Shown: piece after piece, positions 13,458-50,850 of the stretch | How the letters are laid out: the number at the start of each line of letters is the position of its first letter | How positions within the stretch are numbered: position 1 is the first letter of the stretch | Source of the DNA: Isoetes taiwanensis | Lineage: Eukaryota; Streptophyta; Lycopodiopsida; Isoetales; Isoetaceae | Direction of reading: 5' to 3' | DNA: 64,000 nucleotides | NCBI GenBank assembly: GCA_021234155.1 | Contig: JAJEKV010000052.1 | Location: forward strand, 4,569,606-4,633,605 | The notes under the pieces: model-generated | The model's database searches: none | What the model was told of the DNA's origin: nothing | Seen by the model: the letters and a program-made list of their open reading frames with translations, nothing else | Made by a program: the position numbers and the translations under genes

Positions 13458-15050
13458 TGTGACGTTTCAACATAATATACGATCCGAATACGTATATTAT
13501 ACTACCACGTCACACGTACGTGTCATAAATGACATGTACTTGGAAGCCGTAAAGGGTTGCACCTAGGGGGCAAGAGTTGCACATAGGGCGGGCAACCTCG
13601 AATGTTGTGCATGTTTAATAAACATACACAACTATAAACCCCATGGACCCCATTGCCAAATGGCTAAACCCCATTTGGCCAATGTCTAACCTAACCCTAA
13701 GGGTTTCTATATAAGGGCTTTCCCCTTAAACCCTAAACCTTTCTTCTTTGCATTTAGGGTTTTCCTTGAGCTCCTTTCCTTTTCTCGCATTTAGAGTTCT
13801 CTTGAGCCATTTCGGCCAAGCCAAGACCCCAATTCGCATTGCCAGGCTCTGAAAATCCGCCTTTGCACAACAGATCTTCGAGTAGCAGCAGTCTTCAACA
13901 GGATCAGAGGCATGGATGCATTCCGAGGATCTGGAGCAGGTCAAGTACCAGGTAATTAGTCATTCTGTTGTGCAAAGCCGCCTTTTGGCTAGGCAATAAG
14001 CTCGTTTAGCATGTTAATTCAGCCTTGGAGGCCTTACAGATCCCGAGATCATAAGCCCTAACAAAGGAACCTAATTCTGGATGTTTAGGTAGATAGATTA
14101 GATGTTATTCTTCATTTCAGTTCTATGATGATGTTGGTATATTTCACTCTGTGACCTCCATGTATTGGGAAGGGGGGTAGAGGCCTAAAGCCTGTGTAGC
14201 AGATGATCCTAGATAGCCTACTAGTTCCCAATTATATGCGGCCCGTGCACAGGATCCCGCCTGGTTGTGGGTGGCGGGGCTAGACCGGTTGACAAGGAGG
14301 AACTTGTCCTATCACGGATTGACCCCTCTGGTGTGTAAAGCCTACCGGGGGTCTATGCGGGCTAGGCTTAATGGCTTGTCACTGAGTGTGGGCAAGGCAT
14401 GAGCTCGACGCCTCTTGGGTGATGCGTCACCTTCAATGAGGTTCAAGTCGAATACGGGGAGTGGCCCTCTAGCCGCCTGTGATGGGCATGGATGCCTCTG
14501 GAGGGGAGGTGACTCTTCTCCTGCCTCCGCGGGACTGGGGAGATGCAACCCAGCAGTAGCCCCCGACAGGCTACGGTCAGGTCCCAATACCTTTCAACCT
14601 ACTCTGTAAAGTGTGCACGGGAGGGGCAGATGGAGTGGACTACCCTCAGCCATGTTCTTAAATGCCAGCCAAATCCATTTGCCATGAATTCTGTCTGCAA
14701 TGACTTCTGGAGGCCCAATCTGTCAGTCAACCCCCTTGAGTCTGAGCCCTGGGTAGGATTCTGCTTTGTTGTTATTGTTCATATTGATGTTGTTGTATAT
14801 GTGATGATTATGATGTGTTCACTCTTCGAGGTGATTGTATTGATGTATTGTTATTATGTGCTCATGTTTAGCTTCCGCAGCTAGGTCGACCCGAAGGGAG
14901 ACGGGTGAATGACACATCCACTCTTCCCTTGCTGGCTCATTCCACTGGGAGTGGAGTCAGGTGGATGGCCCCTGCCAGTTTGGCTGTCAGGGGGAATGTT
15001 CCGCCTTCTGATACGATGTGTGCATCATATAAGAAGTAGGGGACGTCACA
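13458..15050 (+). repeat. 5' LTR of Gypsy-H
   Basis: It starts TGTGACGTTTC and ends GGACGTCACA, so the termini are TGTGACG / CGTCACA inverted repeats. It is immediately followed (one base) by the tRNA primer site. It contains a TATA box (13708) and a long GC-rich downstream part. The length is 1593 bp. The 3' partner is missing from the window, so the target duplication and insertion age cannot be read. Confidence 0.8.
13708..13716 (+). promoter_or_regulatory. LTR TATA box
   Basis: TATATAAGG lies about 250 bp into the LTR, followed by CCTTAAACCCTAAACC. This is a normal place for the U3/R boundary and the genomic RNA start (expected near 13740). Confidence 0.6.
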
Positions 15051-15051: not shown

Positions 15052-15064
15052 TGGTATCAGAGCA
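15052..15064 (+). promoter_or_regulatory. Primer binding site, initiator Met tRNA
   Basis: TGGTATCAGAGCA one base after the LTR complements the 3' end of plant initiator methionine tRNA, the usual primer for plant LTR retrotransposons. It fixes the LTR end at 15050. Confidence 0.9.
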
Positions 15065-15268
15065 TGATCTTGGTAGACCAACATCGAGCACTGACCATTT
15101 CCCGTAAGACTAACAATAGACTTCCAGTCTTGGGAATAAGCACCCAAGCATGAACCTCGAAAATTGGAGAAAATTTTTTCCAATCTCTAGTGCCGCAATA
15201 GGTTAATGCTAAGTTAATAGTAAGTTTTAGCAAAAACCCAACCAAATTTGGCCAAAAAGAGGTGACCC

Positions 15269-15331
15269 CTCATAGAGTGCGCCCAGACCAAATCCGCTAG
15301 TCTCGGATTTGCTCCCCGCGCACTGTGTGAG
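15269..15331 (+). promoter_or_regulatory. Nested double hairpin module, copy 1
   Basis: The outer arms are CTCATAGAGTGCGC and GCGCACTGTGTGAG; inside them a second stem CAAATCCG / CGGATTTG has a 7 nt loop. It is preceded by CCAAAAAGAGGTGACCC, which is shared with copy 2. It lies in the Gypsy-H leader upstream of ORF1. Confidence 0.8.
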
Positions 15332-15481
15332 TGGTGGACCCATGTTGACCTAGATAGATGCACAAATTAGGTAATCTAATAGTGCAGTTAAACTTATCCC
15401 TTAGATTTCAGCTAGTTTTGCATGTTAAAACGCTAAGAAACTCTTTATAAATTGAAAATTGGACCCAAAAAGAGGTGACTC

Positions 15482-15544
15482 CTCACAGAGTGCGCCCAGA
15501 CCAAATCCGCCATTCTCGGATTGGCCTCTCGCGCACTGTGTGAG
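15482..15544 (+). promoter_or_regulatory. Nested double hairpin module, copy 2
   Basis: The outer arms are CTCACAGAGTGCGC / GCGCACTGTGTGAG and the inner stem begins CAAATCCG. The right inner arm is slightly changed (CGGATTGG). It lies 213 bp after copy 1 and about 115 bp upstream of the ORF1 TATA box. Confidence 0.8.
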
Positions 15545-15659
15545 TGGTGGATGCTTTTTGGCTAAACCAACCTAATGTATTCATCATAATTACACTAATA
15601 TCTTCTAGAATGGCATAATATGGAATTGCAGCCTGTCCAAACCCTAAAATCCCCCTACC

Positions 15660-15692
15660 TATAAGTAGACAATTAGGGTTCCTCATTTACAC
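15660..15692 (+). promoter_or_regulatory. Putative internal promoter of ORF1 (TATA and start region)
   Basis: CTATAAGTAGAC is followed by TTAGGGTTCCTCATTTACAC. The same arrangement, CTATAAATAGGAC then CCTCATTTGCAC, precedes ORF2, so the block looks duplicated as a promoter. It would give a short leader of roughly 80 nt before the ATG at 15772. Confidence 0.5.
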
Positions 15693-16121
15693 TTACCTGC
15701 TCCAGCAAACAGCTCCTCGTCCCAGAAGACGATTTTTAGGCGCCAAGAAGCCGATTCCCTCGATTCAAAACATGGCCCAAACCAAACAGACCGCCGGAAT
15801 CATAGTGCCTGAAGATTACGTCAGCGCCCAGAGCGAGCCGCCCAATAGAAGGCGAGACAGGCTCAGGAGCGAGCCAGGCGGGAATAGGACGTAGAAGCCA
15901 ATCCAGATGCCCAAGAGGAGATCCGGGAGCATCAGGAGGAGGAGCGCCCTCAAAACACTGAGCAACAAGAGGATCCTGGGAGCCAGAGCGAGCCAGGCCA
16001 CGAAGAAGAGGGAGCTGAAGAGGAACTGCAGAGGGAGCTGAAGTGGGAGCTGAAGAGGTTGGAGAAGAAGGAGCTGAAAAGGAAAAGGAATGAAGAACAA
16101 TTGGAGGGCAAGAAGACGAAG

Positions 16122-16226
16122 GAGGAGCGCAGGAGAGAAAAAGAGGAGCGCAGAAAGCAGAAGGAGGAGCGTAGAAAGAAAAAGGAGGAGCGCAGGAAAC
16201 GAAAAGAGGAGCGCCGGAAGAGAAAG
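16122..16226 (+). repeat. Coding minisatellite, 5 x 21 bp (KEERRK heptads)
   Basis: Units starting GAGGAGCGC begin at 16122, 16143, 16164, 16185 and 16206. Each encodes seven residues of the EERRKxK type. Charge alternation suggests a single stable helix or coiled coil inside ORF1. Confidence 0.85.
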
Positions 16227-16520
16227 GAGGACAAGGGGAAAGACCCCGAGTTGCCAAAGGAGACCCGGCGCAAGTTGAAGACGACGCCGGCAAAAGGAGT
16301 CGTCATATGGGAGCAGGAGCCTGACAAGCCGCCCTCCTCCTCTGACACTGAGTCAGATGAGGAGATAAGGGTCCCTATCCCAGCTGAAGGCTCGGGACCC
16401 TCGAATGCAGGTAACTTAGAGGAGGAGCCTACAGCAGAGGTACCCCCATACCCAAGATGGCCTTCACCCAAGCACCCGACAACAGATAAGAAGAAGCCGA
16501 AGCCTGCGCGAGAGTCGTAT

Positions 16521-17066
16521 CATTAGGGTTTTTTTGAGATTAAAAAGGGGCCTTTAAAACATGCCAACTAAGCCAAATGAAGATAAATGAACTACCAATC
16601 AGAAATCAAAGCCTCCCCAGTCAGCAAAACTGTTATAACTAACTCACTGGATCACATTTTCTAGCATAACTATTGATAGAAAAGTCCAAATGAGCTCTCG
16701 TTTAGTGCAGTGGATAGATCTCGTTGAGATCTTTCCAAACTTAGGTGCTTTGCATATATTTTAACCACTTATGATTGTCAAAACTCCAAAAAATATGGTT
16801 TTTACCATTTTTTACTATCCTACGGGGCTAAAAAATATGCAAAACTATCCAAGGTTGGAAAGATCTCAATGAGATCTATCTATTGCACCAAACAAGAGCT
16901 CATTTGGACTTTTCTATCAACACTTATGCTAGAAAATGTAATCCAGTGAGTGAGTTATAACTGTTTTGCTGACTGGATTACCAGTTCTGTTTTCTGATTG
17001 GTAGTTCATATAGCTTAGTCAGCAGTTCTTAGAAGGCCCTTTTATGATCTCAAAAAATCCCTAATG
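16521..17066. mobile_element. Foldback MITE inserted in ORF1
   Basis: The termini CATTAGGGTTTTTTTGAGAT and its near complement ATCTCAAAAAATCCCTAATG form inverted repeats. Complementarity continues inward for about 230 bp on each side (for example AGTCCAAATGAGCTC at about 16692 against GAGCTCATTTGGACTTTTCT at about 16900), leaving a loop of under 100 bp. The flanks are GTAT and GTAC, possibly a decayed target duplication. No coding capacity. It splits ORF1 between the acidic linker and the region leading into the histone fold. Confidence 0.8.
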
Positions 17067-17696
17067 GTACTCAAGCACGAGCTTGAGTACAGGAAGAAGT
17101 TAAAAGAGTACAACCAGTACATGAAGATGTACGAGGAGGACTCGAAATACTAGGAGGAGCACAGGGTCGCGTATGTAGAAGGAGGCAGGCCAACTAAGAA
17201 GAATACTTTGAGGCCGCCCCTGGAAAGACCAGCACCTCCAAGGAAGCCTATCAGGAGAAAGGCGGACAGGTATTTTGCCAGAGCTGCTCGGGAGATCCGG
17301 CACTTCCAGATGAGCTATGGATTGATGATCCCAAGAGCCGCTTTCGCGAGACTCACTCGCAAAATTTTGCAGGAATTCGACAATACCAAGAGAGTAACAG
17401 ACGACATGTTACTCGCGCTACAGGAGGCGGCCGAGCAGAAGATAGTCCAGCATTCTGAAGACTCTATAGCATGTGCCCTACATGCAAAAAGAGTAACATG
17501 CATGCCTAAGGATATGAAGCTGGCCAAATATATTAAGAAGGAAGACTAATAGTCTATTGGAAATAATTTTTGTAAACATAAATTTATGTTTTTGCCATGT
17601 TAATATGTGAAATCATAGTTATCTAGGTTGTATTAATAACTTCTGCAATTGGAATCACCAAATTTGGAGCAAAACTCAGTGTTTTTGGCCCCACCC

Positions 17697-17759
17697 CTTA
17701 CAGAGTGCGCCCAGACCAAATCCGCCATTTTCGGATTTGCTCCTCGCGCACTGTGCGAG
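17697..17759 (+). promoter_or_regulatory. Nested double hairpin module, copy 3
   Basis: The outer arms are CTTACAGAGTGCGC / GCGCACTGTGCGAG and the inner stem is CAAATCCG / CGGATTTG. It lies about 150 bp after the ORF1 stop and is the first of three copies upstream of ORF2. Confidence 0.8.
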
Positions 17760-17899
17760 TGGTCGAGCACTGATCTTTGCCAATACTTGGCCAAATGAAG
17801 AAAGTAAGGGCACCATCCAACTTAACTCATTGTGATTAGTAGGATTTGACCCTTAGATTGTAGAAATTGGCCAATCTAGACCCAAACAGAGCCCCGCCC

Positions 17900-17958
17900 C
17901 TCACAGAGCCCAGACCAAATCCGCCATTCTCGGATTTGCTCCTCGCGCACTGTGTGAG
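17900..17958 (+). promoter_or_regulatory. Nested double hairpin module, copy 4
   Basis: This copy has a 4 nt deletion (TGCG) in the left outer arm, while the inner stem CAAATCCG / CGGATTTG is intact. The spacer between copies 3, 4 and 5 is also repeated (ATGAAGAAAGTAAGGGCAC), so the array has a period of about 200 bp. Confidence 0.8.
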
Positions 17959-18099
17959 TGGTCGACCCCTAATCTATACCAAAACTTGTCTAAATGAAGA
18001 AAGTAAGGGCACAATCCGACCTATCTCGATGAGATGAGTAGGATTTCACCTTTACTTTGCATGTTTGGCATCATCCTCGACCCAAACAAGGCCCCACCC

Positions 18100-18162
18100 C
18101 TCACAGAGTGCGCCCAGACCAAATCCGTCATTCTCGGATTTGCTCCTCGCGCACTGTGTGAG
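18100..18162 (+). promoter_or_regulatory. Nested double hairpin module, copy 5
   Basis: The outer arms are CTCACAGAGTGCGC / GCGCACTGTGTGAG and the inner stem is CAAATCCG / CGGATTTG. It ends about 165 bp upstream of the ORF2 TATA box. Confidence 0.8.
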
Positions 18163-18327
18163 TGGTCACACCATATTTGTCCTAACTTTCTCCAAATTAG
18201 ATGAAATTTGTTGCAATAGGATCCTTAGAATGCACTCTTTAACCTAGTTTGCCTATGAATTGCATAGCAGCACCTTAGAATCATAGGGATTCCCCAACTT
18301 TGAAATTTCTAAAATTAGGGTTTTGTC

Positions 18328-18357
18328 TATAAATAGGACCACAATCCTCATTTGCAC
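18328..18357 (+). promoter_or_regulatory. Putative internal promoter of ORF2
   Basis: TATAAATAG, a consensus plant TATA box, is followed by CCTCATTTGCAC, the same spacing and sequence block as upstream of ORF1. The predicted leader is about 90 nt before the ATG at 18447. Confidence 0.55.
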
Positions 18358-18446: not shown

Positions 18447-19961
18447 ATGGCAACCTCTGCATTTAGGCGATGGTACAGCGCCACAGCTCATGTGGCCGAG
18501 GCAGACATCAACTCCATCTTTGCCGTCTTCTAGAAGGAGGTTGATGTGGAGGCTACCATCAATGCCACCCCTTTCTACCAAGACATCATGACTGAGTTCC
18601 ATGCTAAGATAGAACCTTTTCTAGTAGAGCTCCCACCTTGCATAGGATACTTTGCTCCAAGCATGGCCCTCAAGACAGCCCTGCAAGACATCCCCAACAT
18701 AGACAAGTACCTAGAAAACAAGGCTAGCCGCTTGCCTAACTACACGTCCATATCTGTGAATAGGAGGAGATATTCCTCTTACACAGCAGCCGTAGCCATT
18801 TTCCTATCTCATCGAGCCCAAACCCAGATAGGAGAACCATCTATGCAACCCTTACACGTCGAACCTATGGCCATGGCAGCAGCTGAAGAAGAGCAGATGC
18901 GCCTTGCATACGAGGAGGCAGAGGAAGAAGAAGAGGAAGGACGCGAGTCAGACACAGAAGACATCACCGACATAGACCGGGTACAAGAAAGGTAGCAAGC
19001 AGAGCAGCAGCTCCAGAGCTTCGAAGAAGGGCTGAGAGCCACAAGAACAGCCCCACCACTTGGGCAAGGCATCACAAGCTTGACCCCGGTAATTATCCAA
19101 GGATAGGCGTACTTAAGCCTCCACGACATCAAGAACCTCCCAGAGTGCAGAGACAGGGGCTATAGAATATATGAACTTCTGCATCTCCTGCGGCAACAAC
19201 CGGACCTCGATGACTTCATCGATCGGGAAACACAGGACTTTCCCATTAGCATAAGGGAAGCCCGGACATACATTGGTCAAACATCAACGGGCATAGAAGC
19301 CTACACCGGCATCAGGCAAATGATGGCTGAGCAGGAGTTGCCCTCAGAAGAGGAGTTCTTAGCAATTCAGGAGCACATGGGAATCAGAGGGAAATCAACG
19401 ACCGCGCTCCTACCCAGCACCTCGGCATCAGCCCCAGCACTAGTTGAAGGCAGCATCAACCTAGCATCTTCCATGTCCCGTGATTACAGAGAGATAGTAG
19501 AAGTACCAGTTGACGAGTACTCCGGAAGACATAGAGCAGCATTCAGATCCAGCGAAGAGGCAGGGCATGACAAAGCCCTTAGGTTCTACCTCCCCTTGCT
19601 CATTGATGGAAGGATAGCGGTTATACACCGCCAATTTAGCCTACGTAGTGAAGGAGTTTTCATGCTCATTGCTCTCTCAGGATTCAGAAGTCATGCTCAT
19701 ATGGCCCCAAACATCGATCATGTCATCCTTGTCAAGAGAACAATAGCATTAAGCATCTTCGACTTCGCGGTCCCCTATAGAAGACAGGGCAAATTGGCAG
19801 TCACTGCAGCCTATACATCAGAGAGGAGGATTGAAGACTTGGTGACCGCACTTCAAGGAGGCATGGCCACAAATATCTTGAGGAACTTAGGGCGAACAAT
19901 CGGCACGGCCCAAGTGAAGAACTTTTTGGAGGACAACCCGGATTACATGAAAAGATTCTAA
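18447..19961 (+). pseudogene. Gypsy-H ORF2, unknown protein
   Basis: One frame of about 504 codons runs from ATG 18447 to TAA 19959-19961, interrupted only by three TAG codons (18531, 18993, 19104). Without those it would be a single protein. There is an N-terminal part of mixed character (about residues 30-130), a Glu-rich acidic stretch (EEAEEEEEEGRESDTED), and a C-terminal half that looks like a folded alpha/beta domain (LRFYLPLLIDGRIAVIHRQF ... YRRQGKLAVTAAYTSERRIE). I do not recognise the fold. Position between ORF1 and gag, with its own hairpins and TATA, suggests an accessory retrotransposon protein. Envelope-like features (signal peptide, membrane helix) are absent. Confidence 0.6.
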
Positions 19962-20150: not shown

Positions 20151-21935
20151 ATGCAGCTAGAGTACCTAAGAACATTGAGGAACAAGGACAATGTGAGCAA
20201 GAGCGCACTCCACCAAGGCAATTCCGACCAAGAAATCTGTACCAAGAGTTTGATGCACCAACACCAGAAGAGGAGCTATCCCAGATTAAGTCAGACATTC
20301 ATGAGATAAGAGCATTACTGGCAAGAGCAAGCAACAGGAGGACAGGACCAGAATGTGCAACTGCCAGAAACCCAAGGCGACCGAACAGTTCATCCAAGGA
20401 AGAGAAGCCGGAGAAGGAGATCACCTAGCACGGAGTCCTCCGACTCTAGTTCAGACTCTGATTCCGGATCGGAAGAGCAGGAGGAAGAGAGACAGGACTG
20501 CCAGGAGGGTCCAAACCGTGATAGAGGCAGGACACAATCTGACTATCAGAAGAAGGTCGACTCGGCGCTCAGCAATGTATGGAAAGCAAGAAAGCTGGAG
20601 CAATTTTCAGGGGATAGCAGGTCCGGAGTGGAAGCAGAAGCATGGTTGGACGAAATGAGGGAGTATGGAAATGCCTATGGCATGAAGGAGAAGGACAACG
20701 GTAGAGTAGCGACAGCCAACCTGAAGGGAGCAGCCAGGATTTGGTGGAAAGGCTACGCCAAAGTACATGGACTAAGCAGGGACAGTTGCAGGTTCAAGAA
20801 GTTTGCTAGGGCATTCAAGCGTCATTATGTGCCAAGAGAATACAAGTGTCACATGATGCAGCAGTTTTACAGGTTGCAGCAGGGCAATAAATCAGTTCAG
20901 AAGTACACGGAAGAATTCATGAGACTAAGGCTCTATGTGCCGAAGTTGAGTGAAAGGCACACAGTAGAGGGTTACATTGAAGGATTGAACAAGGAGATCT
21001 GGAAGCTAGTAAGAGCAATAAACCCTAGGATGGTGTCAGAAGCAGAATCCAAAGCAGTCAGCCTGCAAGGAACCGGACCCCAAGAATATGGACCAAGACA
21101 GTAGTATTACCAGGATAAGGGAAAGGGCACAGGAAGTTATAGCCCAAGAGCAGCAAGCCCAGCAGCTAGCAGGCCTCAATACAACGCTAATTATGGGAAG
21201 CAGGGCAATGCAAACAGTGGCAAGCAAGATAAGAAGCGGGTGACCTTCAAAGAGCAAGGAGGGGGTTCCAACTACTCAAAGGCAGTGAAACAGTTTTTGC
21301 AATTCATTCTCAAAGAGAAGAAGCAGGAATGCATAGAAAAGCATTTCCAGCCAGGGCATAGGACAAACAGCTACCCCTTGGTGATGAACGCGGCATTAGC
21401 GGAGATGGGATGGGAGACACCCACGGACGTTGACGAGGACGAGGCCACAGACTACATCCAGGGTGAGTGCCACGTCTTTGCTGCCATTGACACCGAGAAC
21501 GCTGAGAGTCAGTATCAAGTTATTTCAACAACCGGGAAGGCTAAATCCAAGTCTTTCATAGTGTTGATAGATACGGGAAGCACCCATAATTTTGCTTCGC
21601 CAAGGATGGTACAGATGTTGAAGCTGAAGCCTTTGAAGTCCAAGCCTAGGCCAGTTGTCTTGGCTAGTGGAGCAGTCCGACACACAGCAGGGAAGAGGAT
21701 CAATTTCAACGTAGACTTGCCAGGTATCAATGTTGCATTGGGAGCTGAAGTGATGAACATCGGCAAGTACGACTTGATCATAGGCATGGAATACCTTGGA
21801 CCAGCGAGAGCCGTAATTGATTGTGGGAAGCGGAAAGTAACCTTAACAACGCCAGAGAGCAAGGTCATTGAGATAACAGGGAAAGAAGTCACCCCAATCA
21901 TGCAATGCATGTCTAGTGAGAAGTTACTTAAATGC
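20151..21935 (+). pseudogene. gag-pro: Gypsy-H gag and aspartic protease (5' part of gag-pol)
   Basis: The N-terminal gag (20151-20400) is coding-like in a shifted frame (LYQEFDAPTPEEELSQIKSD), so there is a frameshift near 20390. From 20355 the frame gives an Arg/Ser-rich stretch and then the Retrotrans_gag domain (EQFSGD, AWLDEM, ARIWWKGY, FKRHYVP, YTEEFMRL). A single TAG at 21102-21104 interrupts a Gln-rich linker. No CCHC zinc knuckle is visible, which is unusual for chromoviruses. The retroviral-type protease follows with the active site DTGSTHNF at about 21571 and DLIIGMEYL near 21775. The frame ends at the Copia-1 insertion (21935) and resumes at 51709. Confidence 0.85.
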
Positions 21936-22768
21936 TGATGAATTTAGAGGCAAAGAGTATGATTTTGCAAGTGTAATAACAAAATGCCTAGCAAGATTTT
22001 CAAAATTCAAGATCTACATAAACACATGTAGTACAAGTGAGGATTTAGTGGAGAGCCACAATATGGTCTCTCATCTCCACTATTGTAAACTCAATAATAT
22101 GGGAAACAAGTTTTAATGGTCAATAAACCATTAGCCTTAAATCTTCACAAAGATATAATGAGTTTACTGTTCATCGGGCATTGACTCGATTACTGTAGCT
22201 CAATTGACTTGAGCATTTCACGTTCTACTCAGCCGGATCTGCTTCATAACTCCGTCCGTCCATATGTTCTCACAGGTTCCATATTCATAGTTGTAAATCC
22301 GGCGGTTAAGGGACAGCTCCACTTTCCTATCTGGGTCTATCTCCATGTCTGCATATATCCCACAGGATAAACGTAAGGAAAAAGGCTGGTTCACAATATC
22401 CCACATGAACGTTGATAAAAATCGGCCTTGGAACCATTGAGGCTTATTCTTCGAATTAATTTGCTTTCTTCTTCAACCTTAACCATGGTTGCACTATTTG
22501 GTTCTCAACCTCCAATGAACAATTTTGCTAGCACTTAACAGAGAATTTATCATCACTGCTGTACCCTAGGTAATTAGATAATTCTCAAGTTTTTTCTGGC
22601 CCACTGCCACTGCTTCTCATGGGCAGACACATTGAATTGTTTAAGTCTTCATGCAGTATAGGTCACAACATTCTGCAACATTCTGCAACTTGTGAGTTCA
22701 CTTGGATCACTGACTGCTCACTTGCATTCTAAAAGCAATCACTGCCACTGCTTCTCATGATTGCAATA
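21936..22768 (-). repeat. Copia-1 3' LTR, distal part
   Basis: On the plus strand this starts TGATGAATTTAGAGGC and is nearly identical to 50865-51695. It has an extra 16 bp block near 22276-22292 relative to the 5' LTR. It breaks off at GCAATA (22768), where the Helitron begins; the missing end of the LTR lies at 42293-42319. Confidence 0.9.
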
Positions 22769-22790
22769 TCTTTCTTTATACTAAAGGGAT
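22769..22790 (+). other. Helitron 5' terminus
   Basis: The sequence starts TCTTTCTTTATACTAAAGGG directly after the Copia-1 LTR base 22768. It resembles the 5' ends of plant Helitrons (TC followed by an ACTATAAAGGG-like run). Confidence 0.75.
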
Positions 22791-22859
22791 TTTGAGTGTT
22801 TGTCATCAATTTTCATTTTGAGCCGTCTGATTTTTTTTTAAGATCGAAGGGCTAGGATT

Positions 22860-25631
22860 CCATATTGGGCAGGGCGCCCAATCAACAATTGCTTTTGGGA
22901 AAGTTTTTCATCGTACATTTTGTTTTGTTTGGGAGCCATTCTGTGCAGTCTTTTCTCCATCTCTGCCGTTCGAGATGCGTGTTTTGCTTAAGCTTGTCTA
23001 GAGGACGTTCCCTTGTTAACCTGTTTGGTGATCTTTCACAGCAATCCTGAGTGCTTGGGAATCCCCTTATCAATCGGTTGAGGCCCAGAGCATAATAACT
23101 TAAATTACATGTGTTTGGGGATAAATTCTGCTACCTATGCCCTTTTGCTCAGGAACTGTGGCAACGAACATGAGCTACTTGAGGGTACATGCCCGAATAC
23201 TAACAGATGGTTTTGGAGAAGAGCGGTATCTGCCCTGGGGAATCTGCTTATTGAAATGTTATGCTCTGATCTGATCTATAAAAAAAAGAAAGAGGAAGGG
23301 GAGGGATTTTTTTGCCGGATTGGAGCAGAGGGGGTCAGAAATTTTTTCACGAATAAGGTGAGGGTTTTTTAATCTTCTATTTTTCTCATGCTTTTGTTCT
23401 TACCATTTTGTGCTCCAGTTATTTCTGCTTTCGACTCCATCTGTGCTTGAACCATCTATTAGCTTCTTAGATCAACATTCTTTTTCTTTTTTTCTTCTGA
23501 CTTTTCTGACCTGCAGCCACCGGATTTCTCAGTTCTTAAGCAAAATATTTTGCACAAGCGGCCAATATTTTGATGAAGTGCATATGTGTCTCCTCCTCTG
23601 GAATTGGGACGGTTTAGGTGAGATGAGACCACAAGTGATTGAGTCTATAATGCCGCGTCTCATCTCTCTGATTGCATGGCTGAAACGTAAGCATCCTTTT
23701 TCTTCTTTCTTTCTTTTTTGTATTTGCATGTCTACAAATTTTTAGTTCTGAGAGCTCAATTGTTCATCTGCCCCAGATCTTGATGGGCTCTCAAACTTGC
23801 AAGCATTCTGTTGATAACGAAGAAGCTGGTATTAGGTCTGTTTTGCAGAAACCAGACAGAGTCACGGTGAACCCATCCAATGTTATTCAATTCTCATGGA
23901 AGCCTAGGTAATGTTCTTTGGATGTTGGATATTTACTAATCTATATACAATATACAAGCCTTATTTTGTGGGCGGGCAGAGACAGACAGGGATGTGGATG
24001 TGCACATAGATGTTTAACAAACCTGCCTACAGATCTCACCCCGTCCCTGCAAAGGTACAAATCCTGGCAACTGCAAATGTTTTAGAACCTTCATTATCCT
24101 TGTTGTTTGTTCACCCAATTATCATTCTGCTTCTGTATATTCAATACCATTGCTAAAGCTGTTACATATTTCTTCACTGAGTTGTTCAGAATCTCTAAAG
24201 ATCCAATGCCCCTGGAAACAATGCTATTTCTACAATATACAGTGTCCAGGTAAGTCTAAATGTGACACAAAGTTATGCCATTGGGAAGAGACAATGTAGG
24301 CCGATAGATAGCAATGTTCAAATAGGATATGGTCTTTGTATGATTGGTAATGAATTGGTTAAAGCCAGGTTGCCTGGAAAAGAATCAGGTCAAAATACCA
24401 GAAAAGGCAATTGGAAGGGTCTTCACTCTGTTTCTCTATGGAGGACTTGAAACCTGTAAAAAAGGGAGAATAGGACTTGATCCCATGTTACATTTGTTTA
24501 CAGCAGCTAATCGATTTCTAATTGAGTTCTCTGAATATTTGTGCACGCTGCTGAAGTTTCAATAATCTAGCTAAAATTCTGGCCTTCATCCTTTACGCGA
24601 TAGGCACTTGCCGATTTGGCACATGCCTCCTTGAGAATTACAGCATTTCTGTGTACGGCCGCACCATAAGTAGCATGAATCCCAATTTGCTTATTCTTCT
24701 ATCTCAAGTTGTGTCAGTTGGCCCCATGCTATGTCTTTATGTTTGGCCCCATGCTCATAATTATGGCTTTAATTTGCTAGGTGCAGGTGGACATTAGATG
24801 TGGTTTAGCTATTGATGTGCTAACTGGCCTATTGGAAAATGGAGAACTAGGACGTTAATTCTTTGTCCTGTTTAATTGGCTAAGTCGTTAAGACTCAAAC
24901 ATGTAAACATTATGTTTGCTATTTGCTTTGCAGTTCAGTGTATACAAGCAAATAAGAAACTATATGCAGTCACAGTCACAGAGGAAGATTGAAAAAGAGG
25001 AAGATTGAAAAACTGACGTAAGTAACATATGTCTCTTATCTTTTATGGAAATTTATCAAAATTGGACAATGTAGTATGATATAGCAATTCCACCATTTTG
25101 TTAATATTGACCTGACTTAGGCATGAGATTTATCATGTCACGATTCAGAGCAGCTAAGGGGAAAAGACATCCCAATGCTAATAGCAAGAAGATCAGTTTA
25201 TTTTATGTTCCACCTTGACTTTTACATCCATGGTCTTCTTTTTGATCCATTTAATGTTAATGCATTTTTTTTTTACCTCTTGATGGGTCTTGATATCTTG
25301 CAACTATATGTTAATTTGTATTATAATGTCGTTATTGTAGTGCTTTTGCTTCCTATGAGGAGTTATTTGACACGTTGCTGCTTTGTGTGGATGCCTTGCA
25401 AATTCTTCGAACTCTCAGCAAGTTCTCCTGCATTTAGGACTGTTAATTGGGTCATCTCCTACACAAAAGAAAGACCATGATCTGCTTTAGCTTCTCAATT
25501 ACTGGATTGCGACAAAAGTTAAAGGAGTATTCTACTATATTTCAGTCGGTGCTAATGTGATATTAAAGTGTCTTTGGTTATTATCTTCCAATTGTCTGCT
25601 CTATCTAGCTCTATCTAACAGATGTACATGG
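22860..25631. other. Helitron interior, probably captured host sequence
   Basis: Exon-like pieces with good splice signals occur (for example a frame ending WLKR|GTAAGC at about 23689, and CAGTGTCCAG|GTAAG at about 24252), mixed with intron-like T-rich DNA. I could not assign them beyond the exon at 23849. This pattern fits Helitron gene-fragment capture. Confidence 0.35.
23849..23907 (+). pseudogene. Possible captured exon, prolyl 4-hydroxylase-like
   Basis: A 59 bp exon is bounded by CTGTTTTGCAG and GTAATG. It encodes KPDRVTVNPSNVIQFSWKPR, which resembles the RVTQLSWRPRAF segment at the start of the plant prolyl 4-hydroxylase domain. No following catalytic exons (His, Asp, His) were found, so only a fragment was captured by the Helitron. 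The match is short and the family call tentative. Confidence 0.35.
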
Positions 25632-25774
25632 ACCAAAATGATCCAAAGGCCAAGTCATAAATTTTAGCAAAGAAACTCTGAGTTCCCTTACCATCAAAGG
25701 TTTGAGCAACATTATCGAACCCAAAATGATCCAAAGGCCAAGTCATAAATTTTAGCAAAGAAACTCTGAGTTCC
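25632..25774. repeat. Direct duplication next to foldback insertion
   Basis: The roughly 56 bp segment CCAAAATGATCCAAAGGCC ... GAGTTCCCT occurs at about 25633-25690 and again at 25720-25776. The second copy abuts the first Gypsy-F LTR start, so the duplication probably arose with the insertion or a repair event. Confidence 0.8.
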
Positions 25775-26114
25775 CTGTAACGGACCTAGGATTTTGAGGT
25801 ATATTGTGGAATTATTTTATTAAAGGATGCAAAGGAATAATAATCGAAATATTATGCATGCATAGTATATATATTGTATATGTGGTTTTTAATACTGTAA
25901 CGGACCTAGGATTTTGAGGTATATTGTGGAATTATTTTATTAAAGGATGCAAAGGAATAATAATCGAAATATTATGCATGCAGAGTATATATATCGTATA
26001 TGTAGAGATTATACGGATAAATATACTAGTGATTAATAATAAATACAAGTACATCATGAAGTATTGGGAAGGTGATAGATTGCGATCAATTCTTGTCAAG
26101 GAGGTGGTGTGAGC

Positions 26115-26445
26115 AATACTTGGGGGCGTGTTGAGTTACCCTCACACTTGAAAGTACATAACGTTTTCCATGTGAGTAACTTGAGGAAGTATGTTTTTGA
26201 TCCTTCCCATATCTTTGGGGGACGATGATTTAGTAAGCGAGGGAGAATTTTACATACCCCACCGCAACGTATTTTTTGCGAGAGGAAACCCGTCGCTTAA
26301 GGAGGCGAACAATACGGAGATTTTTGGTTCAATGGGCGGGTTGTCCTGAGGAAGATGCCACATGGGAAGATGCCAATTGGATTCTTCGTGAGTTTCCGGA
26401 GATGCGCCCATGAGGACATGGGTTGAATTTTTGGAGGAGAGACCG
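26115..26445 (+). pseudogene. Gypsy-F integrase C-terminus/chromodomain fragment (left arm)
   Basis: The decayed plus-strand copy of the segment at 33981-34295 begins GAGTTACCCTCACACTTGAA (VHNVFHVSNL region) and ends at the CATGAGGACATGGG block after the chromodomain-like stretch (QWAGCPEEDATWE). Extra bases shift the frame at about 26215 and 26270. Confidence 0.7.
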
Positions 26446-26910
26446 AACGGACCTAGGATTTTTGAGGTATATTGTGGAATTATTTTATTAAAGGATGCAA
26501 AGGAATAATAATCGAAATATTATGCATCACGTATATATATATCGTATATGTAAAGATTATACGGATAAATATACTAGTGATTAATAATAAATACAAGTAC
26601 ATCATGAAGTATTGGGAAGGTGATAGATTGCAGTCGAATTGCTGAAGGAGCAGGGTGTGAGCAATACTTGGGAGCGTGTTGGAGTGCAGAGGGAGCAAGC
26701 GGGATTCCAGGTGGGGATCAAGACTTACACCTGGGGTTTTCTAGTGTAGCATTTATGTGCTTGTTTAATTTGTGGTTATGCATCTAGGATGGGAATAGAA
26801 TTGGATTGTATGAGCATGGTTGTTAACATGAACGCACAGCATGAATAGTGTTTCTTTAATAATGAAATAACTGGGTTTGCATGGCTGGCAACGAACTTAA
26901 TATTTTATCA

Positions 26911-29447
26911 TGTGACGGGCCTGGCCAGTTAACCTCTCGGTAACTGGAGATCCCATCGATCTCTATCGTTGGATCTACTTAACCTTAGGAACTCAAGAAT
27001 TGATACATGCATATCTAGGTAAAGAATTTAATCTTTATGCTCTAAGGTCCCAAATAAATTTATTATTGCCATTACTCAGCAAAACTTCACACAACTCCCA
27101 AAGCTTTAAAATAATATCACTTCAATCCATATATAATAACAATAATAGTCAAGTTAATTGAACAACAATCCACACGCATCTACCCTCGCTTTTACGAGCT
27201 TGGCTACTCTGAGGCGTCTTTAGCCCTCCGCTACACCATTAACCACGGGGTTAGTCACACGGACTAAGTGGGGATCGGGAATCTAGGTCATATCTAGCAT
27301 TAATCATCACAAAGCATCAACTTTAAACAATAACGTAGCCTTACCATAACCTCGCCCCTGCAATCCAAGTAATTAATCCAACAAGCACAACACATAATTA
27401 TGCCAAACATAGCCATTGCAACTTGATTCCAACATTAAAAACCACATATACAAAAGCCAAGCAACCAAAGCATCAACATTGCAACCAATATTCCTCTGGG
27501 TCTGAGCAAGGTCAACTTCGCCGTCGAGGCCCGGTTGACATAGAGGGGGTAACCACGTGTGTACACACCCATCCACGCAAGGTCCAAAGATTGGAGGACC
27601 ACTTAACTGTGCACGACGTTGTACCATACGGTATCAACGCCCGATGTTCAAATAGTAACATTAACATTTTTACTGTGCAAAAACCGCGAGTCTAGACCAT
27701 CGCACCTAGACTCCGGCCCCAGAGGTCTATATCAAAGAATTACATCACAGATAATTACGTAATTCACCATCATTATGACCCATGCCTTAACAAGCTTACA
27801 TCAAGTTAATTCCATACACACTCTATGTAACAAGGACCATGACTCAATAATTATGATAACCTCAATAATGCAAAATAAAAGATAAACGTCTACATTTTTC
27901 CAAGATTCACTAACAACAAGATTACTATCTACATTTAAGACTTTAATAATGTTTAACCTATAGCATTCAATTGTCGTCATGTTTCTATTAAAACTACTAT
28001 CTATCTATCTATCTATTACCAACTTCCTCCATACATAACACTTGTACCTTGTTTTTTTCCTCTCTTCATTTAATTAATTCCAAAGGTTAAATATATAGCT
28101 AGCTAACTTGTAAGACTACTCATGTCGTAAATTACGTATATCCATTAGCATTAACTCCTCCTTACTTAGGCCTCAATCTCACACAAATTCCTCACCCAAC
28201 TCATGGTTCCAGCTAACCCTTGCCATATTAAATTAACCTATGACCTTAGCTTAAATTATTAACCTCACTTTATTATTATCTTAGCCTACCAAAAACTAAC
28301 TATTAACATCTTTGTTGGTTTATTTTTTTTGAACCTAACGTGCGTTTAACAGGAAACGCACTCTCGGACTGCAGCTCGTGGATCCGGCCTCCAGGCCATC
28401 GGACCCAGCCCAAACCCGCTTGGATGCAGCCGATTCTGGCTCCTACAAGGATTTCCATGCCAAATTGTAATGCTTGTTTGTGGCGAACAAGATGATTCTA
28501 ACCGATTTACTTCACGCCGAGGAAATCCGACCGGCGGTTTCGGACCTGGCATCCGGGCCATCAATTCGGCTTGGAAAAAGCATGAAGCTTTTCGATTTTG
28601 CCGGCAAAGAGGCTTCCAAGCCATTTCGGCCGGTTCGCCCTAATCCGGCGATTTCAATCAATTTTGGGCACCAAGACCCGGATTTTTACAGGCAAATTCA
28701 ACTCCAATCATCCTAATTCTGTGTTATCTCTCCATTTCGGCCTCCTTAAGGCCCAAATCGCCCATTCCAGGGCGATTCACATGCTTTTTGCAAAGATGCC
28801 AAATCGGCAAAAGATCATCCGACGCCTTTTGCCTTTGCATGCAAGGAAACTTGCTGGTTCTTGCTTCATCAATTTAGATTTCAATCCATTCTTCCAAATT
28901 CTAACCAATCTAAACCATTCCAGCTTCTTCTATCATAGATTACACTCACACCTCTTACTATTACCATGATGGAAATTTCATAAAAATATTAAGTTCGTTG
29001 CCAGCCATGCAAACCCAGTTATTTCATTATTAAAGAAACACTATTCATGCTGTGCGTTCATGTTAACAACCATGCTCATACAATCCAATTCTATTCCCAT
29101 CCTAGATGCATAACCACAAATTAAACAAGCACATAAATGCTACACTAGAAAACCCCAGGTGTAAGTCTTGATCCCCACCTGGAATCCCGCTTGCTCCCTC
29201 TGCACTCCAACACGCTCCCAAGTATTGCTCACACCCTGCTCCTTGACGAGAATTCGAACGCAATCTATCACCTTCCCAATACTTCATGATGTACTTGTAT
29301 TTATTATTAATCACTAGTATATTTATCCGTATAATCTTTACATATACGATATATATACTCTGCATGTATAATATTTCGATTATTATTCCTTTGCATCCTT
29401 TAATAAAATAATTCCACAATATACCTCAAAATCCTAGGTCCGTTACA
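26911..29447 (-). repeat. Full LTR of Gypsy-F family, 2.54 kb
   Basis: On the minus strand it starts TGTAACGGACCTAGG (29447) and ends GGCCAGGCCCGTCACA (26911). The same end sequence precedes the PBS at 30832. It shares blocks with the solo LTR at 7353-9885. Small open frames in it look incidental. Confidence 0.8.
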
Positions 29448-30800
29448 GTCTCTCCTCCAAAAATTCAACCCATGTCCTCATGGGCGCATCTCCGGAAACT
29501 CACGAAGAATCCAATTGGCATCTTCCCATGTGGCATCTTCCTCAGGACAACCCGCCCATTGAACCAAAAATCTCCGTATTGTTAAGCCTCCTTAGCGGGG
29601 GTTTCCTCTCTCGCAAAATACGTTAAATGGGGGTACAGAAAATTCTCCCTTCCTACTAAATCATCGTCCCCGGCATATGGGAAGGATCAAAAACATACTT
29701 CCTCAAGTTACTCACATGGAAAACGTTATGTACTTTTCAAGTGTGAGGGTAACTCAACACAGTAAGCCACCTTGCCAATACGTTCCAAAATCTCATACGG
29801 ACCCGCATACCTAGGGGCCCCATTTACCGCACTTTTTAAATGCCGATGAACTCTGCTTGGGATTAATCCTCAAAACACATAATCCCTTTTTGAAATTCAA
29901 GTGGTCTACGTCTCTTATTTGCATACGTTTCTTTTTCTATTTTGTGCCATAAATTCCAAGGCGAAGTCTCCTTAGTTGAGCATCCATGTCCTCCGCTACT
30001 TCATTAGTCGCTTCAACATTGCATTGAGGATCTCTCAATTAAGAGGACAACGGCACTCCTTACCATACATTGCTTCAAAAGGACTCATTTTGATGGAATC
30101 TTGATAAGTGTTGTTGTATGCAAACTCGGCCAAGTACAAGTAAGAATCCCATACCTTTGGTTGACTAGGCACATACATTCTGAGCATATCCTCCAAGACT
30201 TGATTAACTCGCTCCACTTGGCCATCGGCTTGAGGACGATAAGATGTACTGGCATATAACTTAGTCCCAATATTTTGAAACAACCCTTGCCAAAATTGGC
30301 TCATAAACTTTGTATCCCGATCTGATGAAATAGTGGCTGGCATCCCATGCAACCTAAAAATCTCCTTAACGAATAACTTAGCAATATCCATTGCCGTAGC
30401 AGTAGTCTTCGTAGGCATAAAATGGGCCTGCTTGGTTAGTCGGTCAACCACAACATAGATTGCATCATAACCCAACGTGTCCCGGAAGCTCAACAATGAA
30501 GTCCATGGAAATACTCTCCCACTTAGAAGATGGAATTACCAAAGGTTGTAATTCTCCAGGCTCCCTAAACCTTGATGCTTTTACCTTTTGACAAGATAAA
30601 CACCTAGCCACATACTCCTTAACCATCTTCTTCTGTCCGGGCCAAAAGAAATTCTGGCGCATTTTCCTCAAAGTCTTATGTACCCCTGGGTGGCCCGCTA
30701 AAGGACTATCATGTGCTTCATATAACAACCTCAATCTCAACTCCTGATCATTAGGAATACACATACGGCCATTATAATAACCCACAGGTCCCAAGATCGA
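29448..30800 (-). pseudogene. Gypsy-F integrase and chromodomain region
   Basis: The minus-strand frame 30794-30465 carries the HHCC zinc domain (HDSPLAGHPGVHKTL ... CLSCQKVK) and the first catalytic Asp (SMDFIVELP). The frame 30496-30035 carries the second (SSDRDTKFMSQFW) and the catalytic Glu (RPQADGQVERVNQVLED). Further down (30030-29460) the C-terminal domain and chromodomain decay through indels. A small frame break near 30480 separates the two halves. Confidence 0.85.
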
Positions 30801-30810
30801 AACTTGACTC

Positions 30811-30847
30811 TAGGTTAACTGGCCAGGCCCGTCACAGTTGGTATCAG
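30811..30847 (+). promoter_or_regulatory. Gypsy-F LTR end and Met-tRNA primer site
   Basis: GGTTAACTGGCCAGGCCCGT ends in CACA, then TTGGTATCAGAGCAAGG. Only about 25 bp of LTR remains in this orientation before a switch to minus-strand sequence, marking a rearrangement breakpoint near 30810. Confidence 0.8.
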
Positions 30848-30923
30848 AGCAAGGTTCTGGTTAGTGGATTGTGAGATTTTTTATTATTGATGATATTTGC
30901 TATGATTTCAGATTCTTGTAGAG

Positions 30924-32160
30924 ATGAGTTCCCCAGGAGGATCCCCAAGAGGAGTTGAACAGGCTGGTGGAGCTGGGCCTAGTGGAACCCCTGATGTAGC
31001 CGGTATCTTGCGCCTATTCGAAAGTGTTGCGGCCAGAGGCGTCGCAACAAAAAGACAAAGCAAACAAAGGCGGTGGAGAAAGGTGCTGAAGGACACTAAG
31101 AGAGAAGTATTTACTGGAGAAAATGTTACAGGGGATGATGCGGATTCATGGCTTCGTGGGGTTGAGTTTTATTTTAAACTCATCAATCTTCAAGACTTCT
31201 GTTAAAGCTGTATTGGCTCAGGCAATGTTGGGTGGATTTGCTAGAGTATGGTGGGAGAATTATTTGCGGGACATAAATAAGGTTGCAGGGCAGGCAACTT
31301 GGCAAGAGTTTAAGACTGCTTTTGAAGGACACTTTATGCCTCCCGGATACAAAGTAGACAAGATGAATGAGTTCTTGGACCTGACACAGAAAGGGACGGT
31401 GGCTGAATATAACGAGAAGTTCAGAAGGTTGCAGTATCATTGTCCTTTTGAGGATAAGGAGAAGCTTTGCGCTCGATTTGTGAAGGGTTTGCAGGTTGAT
31501 ATTAAGAGCACAATGTCAGGTGTGTCCTATAAGGATTTGGAGGAGGTATTCCGGATTGCTAAGAATCGTGAAGCTGATCTAGTGGAGAAGGCAACCTTGG
31601 AGAATGCTAAGAAGAGACAAGCTCCTTCCACATGGCAGACTGGTGGATCTACGAGTAGAGGTAGATTCCCTAGCAGGGGTGGCATGGCTGCACAGGCTGT
31701 TAGTATGCAGGAGGGTGGTCAAAGCCGAGGATCTCGACCTATGTATGCACCTTTGAATGATGAAACCAGGGAAAAGTGTATTAATGAGAATCGATGCTTC
31801 AGGTGCAGAGAAGTTGGTCATTATGGACGAGATTGTCCGAGAAGGTGGATGGATAGCACCGCCGCCGTCACGCATGTTCTCAACGTGGAGGGCAAACAAA
31901 ACCGATGGTCCGTCGAACTCTAGTGATACTTATGGGACCGGGGCCAAGGCAGAGGAAATGGAGGCCGAGGTAACCGTGGTGGTCGTGGAGGTTTTTGGGA
32001 TAATAATAGGGGTGGCAGAGGACAAGCTAGGGGAGATAACAGGATTATAGCACAAGCTAACCCTGCAGTTGAGGTTAGGGCTGCTAGAATCATGGACCCT
32101 CCCCGTGGAAAGAATGTGCATGTATCTTTGCAGCGGGACCAGGGTCGTGTAGATAATCAA
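30924..32160 (+). pseudogene. gag: Gypsy-F gag
   Basis: ATG 30924 (MSSPGGSPRG) opens a gag with the Retrotrans_gag core (ARVWWENYLRD, FEGHFMPPGY, YNEKFRRLQYHC), an Arg/Gly-rich spacer and one CCHC knuckle CFRCREVGHYGRDC. Frameshifts near 31190 and 31870 break it; after the second, an RG-rich stretch continues in another frame. Typical of plant chromoviruses. Confidence 0.85.
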
Positions 32161-33440
32161 GTTTGTGGTCATCGAGTTCCGTGTATTATTCATGGAGTTC
32201 TGTTCTCTTTCTTATTGATTGTGGTAGTACACATTGCTTTATTTCCCCAAGGCTGGCAAAGAAATTAGATTTGAATATGATTAGTCGGGACCCTAGATAT
32301 GTGGAGTTGGCTGATGGCAAAATTAAGACTTCCTATGCTAAGGTAGACAATCTTGAATTCCAAGTAGGAGATCTTGAGTCCCATACTAGTTTTGAAGTAT
32401 TGAGCCTAGGGAAGTATGATGCTATTCTAGGAATGTCATGGTTAAGGCCACATAAAGCTTGCATTGATTGCGGAAAGCAAACAGTTACATGCCAAAGTCC
32501 TAATGGAGATAAGTTTGTGCTGGAAGGATTGCCTTCGTCATTAGTGGTTACACCTTTGTCCCGGAAAAGTTTTAAGAAGCAGATTAAGAATGGTTGCATA
32601 AGAATGGGATGTGCATTGTTGTTAGATTCATTCTTGGATGCTAGAGTTACTGAGAACAACCTATTGCCCCCGAGATCCGTAAAGTGTTGGATGAGTTTTT
32701 ACGATGTGTTTCCTAAAGAATTAACGGAATTGCCTCCACATAGAATGGTAGATCATGAGATAGAACTTGTTCCTGGGGCTGAACCCACATCAAGGCCACC
32801 ATACAGATTTCACGCATTAGAGATGGCTGAATTGAAGAAACAGTTAGCGGAATTATTGGAACAAGGGTTTATACGGCCGAGTGTTTCTCCATTTGGTGCG
32901 CCAGTTTTGTTTGTTAAAAAGAAGGATGGGACATTAAGGTTGTGTATTGATTACCGCATGCTTAACCAGATTACAGTGAAGAATAGATATGCATTGCCTA
33001 GGGTTGATGAGCTATTTGACCAGTTGGGACAAGCTAAGTACTTCACAAAAATTGATCTACGATCTGGATATCATCAGATCCGGATCAAGGACACAGATAT
33101 TTATAAGACTGCATTTAGGACACGCTACGGACATTACGAGTTTGTTGTAATGCCCTTTGGGTTGACAAATGCTCCCGCCACCTTTATGCGTCTAATGAAT
33201 GAGATATTCCGATCTTTCTTGGATAAGTTTATATTGGTTTTCTTTGATGATATTTTGGTATATTCCAGGACATTAGAGGAGCATGTGGAACATGTAAAGC
33301 AGACATTAGCTATTTTGCGGCAAGAAAGGTTGTATGGTAAGCTATCTAAGTGTTCTTTTGCACAAACTAGATTGGTATACCTTGGGCATGTTATTTCAGA
33401 GAAGGGATTGGAGCCAGATCCGACAGCAGCAAGCCGTGTT
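32161..33440 (+). pseudogene. pol: Gypsy-F protease and reverse transcriptase
   Basis: The protease active site is [10 protein letters not shown] (DCGS in place of DTGS/DSGS) with DAILGMSWL. The RT is well preserved: [58 protein letters not shown] and the catalytic FFDDILVYS. The frame breaks off at about 33425 inside the connection region ([14 protein letters not shown]) and runs into unrelated sequence, so RNase H is missing here. Confidence 0.9.
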
Positions 33441-48788: not shown

Positions 48789-48799
48789 CTCTTGTAGTG

Positions 48800-50841: not shown

Positions 50842-50850
50842 GATTGAGAT

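Follow-up and report, generated by a model that had tools for sequence, protein, structure and literature searches.

Genes resembling histone H3 are carried by hAT DNA transposons in fungi, both in Pyrenophora tritici-repentis (PMC3538342) and, like the former according to the accessible portion of its report, in Pseudocercospora, Cercospora and Sphaerulina (PMC6710886). As far as the first report could be consulted, the P. tritici-repentis H3L has insertions in its tail, fully matches neither H3 nor CenH3 and is represented by expressed sequence tags (PMC3538342); the available accounts describe the hAT-borne copies as very similar to one another in that species and as inactivated by repeat-induced point mutation in P. 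fijiensis. Among plant long terminal repeat (LTR) retrotransposons, additional open reading frames (ORFs) mostly follow pol and precede the 3' LTR, as the available part of a review has it (PMC7264820), and Ty3/gypsy elements of orchids, in the available part of their survey, carry an N6-methyladenosine demethylase domain (PMC9289625). Here we describe a Ty3/gypsy chromodomain LTR retrotransposon of the lycophyte Isoetes taiwanensis that encodes a protein joining an H3 tail tip to an H3 fold; its gene (ORF1) lies after the primer binding site and ahead of gag. The element lies in a window of 64,000 nucleotides (contig JAJEKV010000052.1, positions 4,569,606 to 4,633,605 of the forward strand), and we regard it as nearly certain that ORF1 is an element-encoded, conserved, H3-derived protein.

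A preliminary description of the window had placed an H3-like tip and fold between the LTR and primer binding site and gag, and both are indeed there: ORF1 opens with MAQTKQTAG at 15772 and ends in a fold that matches the histone family PF00125 at 2.1e-20 (73.6 bits, against a cut-off of 26.4), with an H3.3 as its best solved-structure relative (4.1e-20) and the motifs REIR, ALQEAAE, HAKRVT and MPKD in register. Helices are predicted at residues 37-54, 61-75, 83-115 and 118-129 of the 131-residue piece, in the order of H3, and the closest solved matches of the structure model, which was built from 32 rows and has a mean predicted local distance difference test score (pLDDT) of 70.8, are nucleosomal H3 chains. 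The chromodomain claimed for the same element is likewise present (PF00385 6.3e-10), but beyond a nested copia-type insertion (21935-51677). The ORF proposed at 15772..17549 does have the tip and the fold at its ends, but it is not one open frame in this copy: a frame change occurs near 15888-15894, about 16522-17068 is taken up by an insert with inverted ends, and a TAG stands at 17151. Because of the insert, the tip and the H3 piece are 1382 bases apart, compared with 741-871 in other copies. The charged stretch contains a 21-bp tandem repeat at 16103-16231. The glutamine following MA, to which the same description had drawn attention, is found in the window but is a minority state, since 22 of the 28 copies examined below have Arg, 2 Gln, 2 Cys and 2 a stop.

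We searched the genome (1,658,258,908 bp in 1110 contigs) with the H3 piece and scored 150 of 9163 loose candidates; this total, like those of 8255, 6603 and 39529 in the searches below, is a loose first-look number and not a copy number. All 150 scored places match the H3 piece at E 2.9e-60 or better and, the window itself aside, are 74-91% identical to it. From them we examined 28 copies of this family, hereafter family A, namely the window and 27 others (L002-L008, the best matches, and L009-L028, with long open frames). An H3 tip precedes the fold in all 28, with 7-9 of its nine residues matching MARTKQTAR and an exact match in 17; T3, K4 and T6 are kept in every copy, their codons varying silently, and codon 3 is a stop in two copies. 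As a chance control, the best nine-residue match to MARTKQTAR amounted to 3-5 residues in 20/20 equal-length downstream stretches. In the 20 copies taken with 10 kb, ORF2, a second additional ORF, lies downstream in 20/20 and gag in 15/20, the exact primer-site motif stands upstream in 13/20, and the upstream LTR match is full-length in 13, partial in 4, 52 bp long in 1 and missing in 2. Three copies were followed to both ends (L014+L029, L019+L030, L028+L031), and in all three ORF1 stands between two LTRs, the next 7 kb holding reverse transcriptase (RT), integrase, chromodomain and the second LTR. Their LTR pairs are 94.2, 97.4 and 94.6% alike (Kimura two-parameter distances 0.058, 0.014 and 0.042), and their 5-bp target duplications, read by eye, are ACATC, TTGAG and TTCAT. 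The three copies therefore show the full set of features of a Ty3/gypsy chromodomain LTR retrotransposon, that is, LTRs, target duplication, primer site, the series gag-protease-RT-RNase H-integrase, and chromodomain.

The association was also approached from ORF2, with 6603 loose candidates; 150 of these were scored, and the places at ranks 2-61 were compared with the top-150 H3 places. Such an H3 place lies at most 4 kb upstream in 24/60 and downstream in 0/60, and among nine of the remaining 36 places that we examined, five (L044, L045, L047, L048, L049) contain the fold or part of it. In L043 (G000:C1061:7670061-7670516), ORF1 has been lost by deletion between the flanking hairpin repeats, and the leader joins the last hairpin region directly; the hairpin repeats that flank ORF1 may be recombination points yielding H3-less derivatives. 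Insertion of a retropseudogene was considered and rejected: there is no shared flanking word of at least 8 bp and no A-run of at least 6, and other copies carry ORF1. The core claim of the preliminary description, that an H3 was captured by a chromodomain-bearing Ty3/gypsy element and retained as one of the element's ORFs, after the primer binding site and before gag, had been put up against three tests, and all three support it. ORF1 recurs in other copies (150/150 scored places match, with tip and fold in 28/28 examined), the fold scores far above the threshold of the histone family in the window, in the open copy L014 and in the two further families introduced below, and the suspicion of an independent pseudogene with its own boundaries is answered by an ORF1 that is constrained, bears no retropseudogene marks and lies inside LTR pairs in 3/3 copies.

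The ORF1 protein, of about 400 residues, begins with the H3 tip MARTKQTAR and ends in an H3 fold, the two being joined by a long charged spacer. In L014 (396 residues) a basic tip is followed by an acidic stretch, a segment of 75% E/K/R, a spacer rich in Ser, Pro and Lys, a stretch rich in Tyr, Lys and Glu, and finally the fold (PF00125 3.5e-23). Some 250-310 residues separate tip and fold, so the protein departs from the short tail of H3. In the aligned codon rows, 26 in number (25 copies and the window; L003 and L008 were left out for their short open pieces), we found D106, C110, H113, R116, D123, L126, I130, R69 and K115 invariant and T118 kept in 24/26, and H39, Y41 and G44 kept, as aligned, in 0/26 family A rows. 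In the nucleosome, the former positions belong to the H3-H3' bundle and the loop DNA contacts, and the latter three to the contacts with entry/exit DNA. Positions 87-90 read D-M-L-L and K79 is replaced by D in all 26 rows. The predicted ORF1 product is thus an H3-derived protein and not an ordinary H3.

To the conserved residues can be added the codon changes. For the H3 part, the pairwise ratio of nonsynonymous to synonymous change (dN/dS) has a median of 0.083 over 175/325 pairs, the other 150 having been left out as saturated or with dS <=0.03; for the fold alone it is 0.074 (153 pairs). Measured against the window, the H3 part gives 0.104 (19/27 copies with finite dS; the medians over all 27 are 0.095 for the proportion of nonsynonymous differences, pN, and 0.571 for that of synonymous ones, pS), near gag with 0.063 (15 copies) and protease with 0.095 (13 copies); two ORF2 pieces give 0.151 (22 copies) and 0.194 (17 copies), and the charged middle of ORF1 0.173 (22/27). 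The median dS to the window is 0.85-0.98, except for the first ORF2 piece (0.44). These low ratios are unlikely to be an artefact of picking copies by protein likeness, because neutral copies with similar proteins should resemble one another at silent sites too. When neutral drift of an ordinary H3 to equal divergence was simulated, 6-8% of runs remained free of stops, so an open frame alone is weak evidence against neutral decay. Neutral decay of an ordinary H3 was nevertheless rejected, as ORF1 keeps slow sites preferentially (Fisher p 1.2e-5 to 5.7e-4 under four assumed ancestors). The proposed check for purifying selection has therefore come out positive, and codon comparison shows ORF1 to be held by it like gag and protease.

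Two further families carry the fold. A search with a CENH3-like protein of Ceratopteris (8255 loose candidates, 150 scored) led to family B, which is represented by seven of ten short stretches, the other three (L037-L039) being ordinary host H3 genes, and whose element context comes from the single 8-kb stretch L032. There, ORF1 has 425 residues, with a different N-terminal part (MANTK...) ahead of the H3 fold, a primer site upstream and gag downstream. The family B fold (PF00125 2.2e-41; seven pieces 80-88% identical to H3.3) keeps H39 and G44 in 7/7, and its dN/dS is 0.027-0.062 in 12/21 pairs and 0, 0.088 and 0.324 in three close pairs, the remaining 6 being saturated. We also observed that in L032-L035 a fast-evolving N-terminal region (pN up to 0.27) is joined to a near-canonical H3 fold. 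Family C was reached with integrase (82 scored of 39,529 candidates) by fetching two copies, L052 and L053, from an 87% group absent from the H3-based lists; both have MARTKQTARK, with the tip exact, a spacer and an H3 fold (PF00125 1.8e-29).

Our final tree comprised the three families and host genes, over 90 columns with long branches and with family A copies L012, L021 and L027 left out; the database CENH3s used in the trees had been retrieved with the window's own H3 as query. Families A and C group together (support 100), family B (100) stands beside canonical H3, and the best tree puts A+C with proteins P0010 and P0013. By the approximately unbiased (AU) test, a single A+B+C clade is rejected (p 0.0018), A+B+C with canonical H3 receives p 0.031 (Shimodaira-Hasegawa test 0.062), and A+C with CENH3 is allowed (p 0.28); with earlier taxon sets the AU p was 0.0068 for A with canonical H3, 0.045 for A+B, 0.20 for A+B+canonical H3 and 0.17 for the window alone with canonical H3. 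At least two captures of H3 are thus probable from these trees, and the fold of the window's family appears to lean away from ordinary H3, towards a CENH3-like or otherwise divergent H3. Among 24 H3/CENH3-diagnostic columns, the window has the CENH3 state in 4, the H3 state in 4 and neither in 16. The CENH3-type extension of loop 1 is absent, the loop being of canonical length in the window and the copies shown, and so is the Trp at the start of helix 2, residue 84 being V, L or I in 26/26 rows. No host CENH3 was found at the ten places examined from the Ceratopteris search, which are family B copies and ordinary H3, and searches of viral contigs and genome contigs returned no relative. The protein database returned 8 and 66 histone proteins that are at most 53% identical except over short stretches (60% over 27%, 58% over 25%), so at that sensitivity there is no clear copy in another species. 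In proteins P0002-P0008 (JGI, ENA; 306-412 residues) a C-terminal H3 fold follows a long N-terminal part; they may be long-tailed H3 variants or further captured H3s.

Given these features, we propose a nuclear role for the ORF1 protein: it would serve as a chromatin adaptor that resembles an H3 variant and presents a tip of the H3K4 type. We put the probability of this statement as a whole, mechanism included, at roughly 0.5. The fold would pair with host H4 and form an (H3-H4)2-type particle on the element's DNA or at a target site, and this particle would keep the bundle and the loop DNA contacts and lose those to DNA at the nucleosome ends. On its long arm, the tip, which in H3 serves to mark active genes, would display an epitope of the H3K4 type to the proteins that read and write active chromatin, and its recognition could favour transcription or integration and counter silencing, beside the chromodomain of the integrase. 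Nuclear location, binding to H4 and DNA, and the offering of the tip to H3K4 readers are all suggested by the conserved residues. The preliminary description had suggested that the element may use its H3 to mimic, enter or disrupt nucleosomes or to mark its own DNA. A bolder version, which we hold as tentative and rather doubtful, has the element supplying its own H3 in place of host H3, or together with it, either on element DNA or where the element integrates. This would confer a self-made H3K4-type chromatin identity addressed to host readers and to the element's own chromodomain, and would have arisen at least twice, in B from canonical H3 and in A/C from a divergent, CENH3-leaning H3.

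Several observations weigh against the adaptor, or against the strength of the constraint behind it. The fetched family A copies were picked by H3 similarity or for a long open frame, and in four of the nine ORF2-bearing copies (L043, L046, L050, L051) the fold is absent from the examined stretch. The tip is not kept across the lineage, as family B starts with MANTK, MANIK or MAITK only; residue K9 varies within family A; and ORF1 is broken in both family C copies, in L052 by a stop that separates tip from fold, in L053 by a frame break. The model of the fold is only fair (pLDDT 70.8, predicted template modelling score 0.41), and its superposition as a whole on solved H3 is poor, with a template modelling score of 0.42-0.44 by query length and a root-mean-square deviation of 11-19 Å among the matches listed. 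Additionally, the noncoding p-distance to the window has a median of 0.18-0.20 (LTR tail 17, leader 26, inter-ORF 27 copies), compared with a dS of about 0.9 for most coding pieces. Either the noncoding parts are constrained as well or the silent distances are inflated. Judged by the noncoding distance, the H3 part would be less strongly constrained, though its dN of 0.10 would still be about half that distance.

Other roles for ORF1 have to be set beside the adaptor. The protein could be a soluble decoy outside chromatin, whose tip and fold titrate H3K4 readers and writers, histone chaperones or H4 and thereby weaken silencing. An exact tip in 17/28 copies on a very long arm, and the loss of the entry/exit-DNA contacts, would suit a decoy, which however has no need of the loop DNA-contact residues that are kept, R69, K115 and R116 in 26/26 and T118 in 24/26; we think it unlikely. 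Packaging, in which the fold and the basic stretches would condense cDNA or RNA of the element inside the particle or the pre-integration complex and the tip would be a leftover H3 start, is in keeping with the basic parts of the spacer (isoelectric point ~10), with a coding place that adjoins gag and with the lack of any other DNA-binding fold in the scanned Gag pieces. Yet a leftover start should decay, and the constancy of T3, K4 and T6 in 28 copies makes packaging distinctly unlikely in our judgement.

The ancestry of the fold bears on another route, by which an A/C fold derived from CENH3 would bring the element to centromeres through CENH3 loading. One best tree does join family A to plant CENH3, with a placement beside canonical H3 rejected (AU p 0.0068), and the residues REIRHFQ, LLIP and KDM are CENH3-like; the support for A+CENH3, however, is 50, with 39, 98 and 57 in other taxon sets and 63 in a later tree, and with family C added A+C goes with P0010/P0013, its union with CENH3 being just allowed by the AU test (p 0.28). 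As the diagnostic columns are split and both the loop extension and the Trp are wanting, this route seems quite improbable. A captured passenger without a role for the element, its constraint overstated by our measures, would account for ORF1-less copies such as L043, for a noncoding distance below the silent-site distance and for open frames in copies partly picked for them; against a dN/dS near those of gag and protease, a fold kept in three families and invariant interface residues, we consider it very improbable. That a host H3 pseudogene landed independently in one copy is scarcely credible at all, for the broken frame of the window copy is the sole point in its favour and the other copies, including those with ORF1 between LTRs and target duplications, refute it.

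The element runs, in order, through 5' LTR, primer binding site, two hairpins, a TATA-like box, ORF1, three hairpins, a second TATA-like box, ORF2, gag, protease, RT/RNase H, integrase and chromodomain; the 3' LTR is missing in the window copy, no downstream LTR match having been found. All 6 stops in the last part of ORF1, in ORF2, in gag-protease and just before the chromodomain are TAG, which fits decay at methylated CHG sites; the head of pol, whose frame is unclear, carries stops other than TAG too. ORF2 (18447-19961) has no match in Pfam or PDB, and its single-sequence structure model is uninformative (pLDDT 34). ORF1 and ORF2 are preceded by similar sequence (score 48, the best of 500 shuffles reaching 40 and 0/325 other window pieces reaching 48), and the same hairpin stands ahead of both. 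Folding energies of the five hairpin repeats range from -21.5 to -39.6 kcal/mol; an Rfam scan of 12000-60000 gave no match, and the hairpins have no covariation support because 0/26 pairs changed on both sides. Elsewhere in the window we noted, within the nested insertion, a Helitron-type protein (PF14214 3.7e-61) with a helicase-like ORF at 37710-41629 and a CACTA-type transposase piece (PF02992 7.5e-7) with adjoining ORFs at 45128-47700, and, at 100-690, a piece of an NLI-interacting-factor-like phosphatase (PF03031 2.7e-50) that is probably a host gene.

Table 1 Features of the H3-encoding element in the window (window coordinates)
Feature	Position	Strand	Evidence or remark
5' LTR (start TGTGACG)	13458..15050	+	85.5% to L028 5' LTR; sole match in window
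Primer binding site TGGTATCAGAGC	15052..15063	+	Sequence; motif LTR-adjacent in 13/20 copies; presumably complementary to initiator-Met tRNA
Hairpin repeat 1	15252..15347	+	
Hairpin repeat 2	15465..15560	+	
TATA-like box before ORF1 (TATAAGTA)	15660..15667	+	
ORF1 start, H3 tip MAQTKQTAG	15772..15894	+	Frame closed by TAG
Middle of ORF1: spacer, acidic and rich in E/K/R, in the next frame	15888..16526	+	
Insert resembling a miniature inverted-repeat transposable element, inverted ends, interrupts ORF1	~16522..17068 (approximate limits)	+	
ORF1 end	17069..17549	+	TAG at 17151; open piece 17154-17549
Histone H3 fold	17268..17546	+	PF00125 2.1e-20; PDB H3.3 4.1e-20; predicted helices
Hairpin repeat 3	17680..17775	+	
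Hairpin repeat 4	17879..17974	+	
Hairpin repeat 5	18083..18178	+	
TATA-like box before ORF2 (TATAAATA)	18328..18335	+	
ORF2, no recognised family, 3 in-frame TAG	18447..19961	+	
gag	20310..21104	+	PF03732 1.6e-16
Protease	21105..21938	+	PF08284 9e-13
Nested insertion: minus-strand copia-type element with further elements inside	21935..51677	.	Terminal direct repeats 96.8%
RT/RNase H piece	52168..52782	+	PF00078 5e-16
RNase H and integrase	52754..54343	+	PF00665, PF17921, PF17917
Chromodomain	54344..54571 (domain match 54344-54559)	+	PF00385 6.3e-10
Internal region, 3' part	54572..55077	+	54286-55077 = 89.6% to copy L031

Transposons are normally acted upon by host chromatin; the present lineage of them seems to make a histone of its own, with tip and interfaces kept through long evolution. 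It may offer a mobile element a route to writing chromatin, beyond reading it, and it constitutes a natural experiment that separates the parts of H3 that are sufficient (tip, H3-H3' bundle, DNA loops) from those that are not (entry/exit contacts). It is also a warning that H3 gene counts, H3-tail antibodies and H3K4 chromatin immunoprecipitation in such plants may detect an element-encoded protein. Influenza NS1 is a viral mimic of the H3 tail, and ORF1 resembles mimics of this type in placing a short copy of that tail in a parasite protein; unlike them, it joins the tip to a whole H3 fold. Giant viruses and bracoviruses encode core histones, and are alike in being viral or mobile genomes with core-histone folds; unlike our element, they are not retroelements and are not known to have an H3 built of tip, spacer and fold.

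The preliminary description knew of no LTR retrotransposon described as encoding a histone, and in agreement with it we recognised none in a search of open-licence papers, made mostly by listing. The word 'histone' occurs 0 times in the main text of the review of additional ORFs in plants (PMC7264820) and, as far as these were available, in the main texts of the genome papers of I. taiwanensis (PMC8566536) and I. sinensis (PMC10541799); the domains named in the available part of the orchid survey include no histone, and the word appears there twice, in other senses (PMC9289625). An H3 on a mobile element is already known from the fungal hAT transposons, and a retrotransposon-encoded H3 under selection, with tip, spacer and fold, is undescribed within the literature searched.

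Chromoviruses, among them the CRM and Tcn1-like clades, share the Ty3/gypsy chromodomain with our element, and their descriptions, in the parts available, contain no H3 ORF (PMC3059260, PMC2864245). Like the orchid elements, as far as their survey was available, our element is a plant Ty3/gypsy retrotransposon that has taken up a domain of host origin and kept it (PMC9289625); unlike these and the additional ORFs covered in the accessible part of the review, it encodes a different protein, and ORF1 lies between the primer binding site and gag. The closest likeness is to the fungal hAT transposons, which on the available accounts are also mobile elements that carry and amplify an H3-derived gene (PMC3538342, PMC6710886). 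In contrast to those DNA transposons with terminal inverted repeats, as the same parts of the reports describe them, the carrier here is an LTR element, a chromodomain Ty3/gypsy retrotransposon, and its H3 has a long spacer, occurs in three divergent families and has been under long-term constraint.

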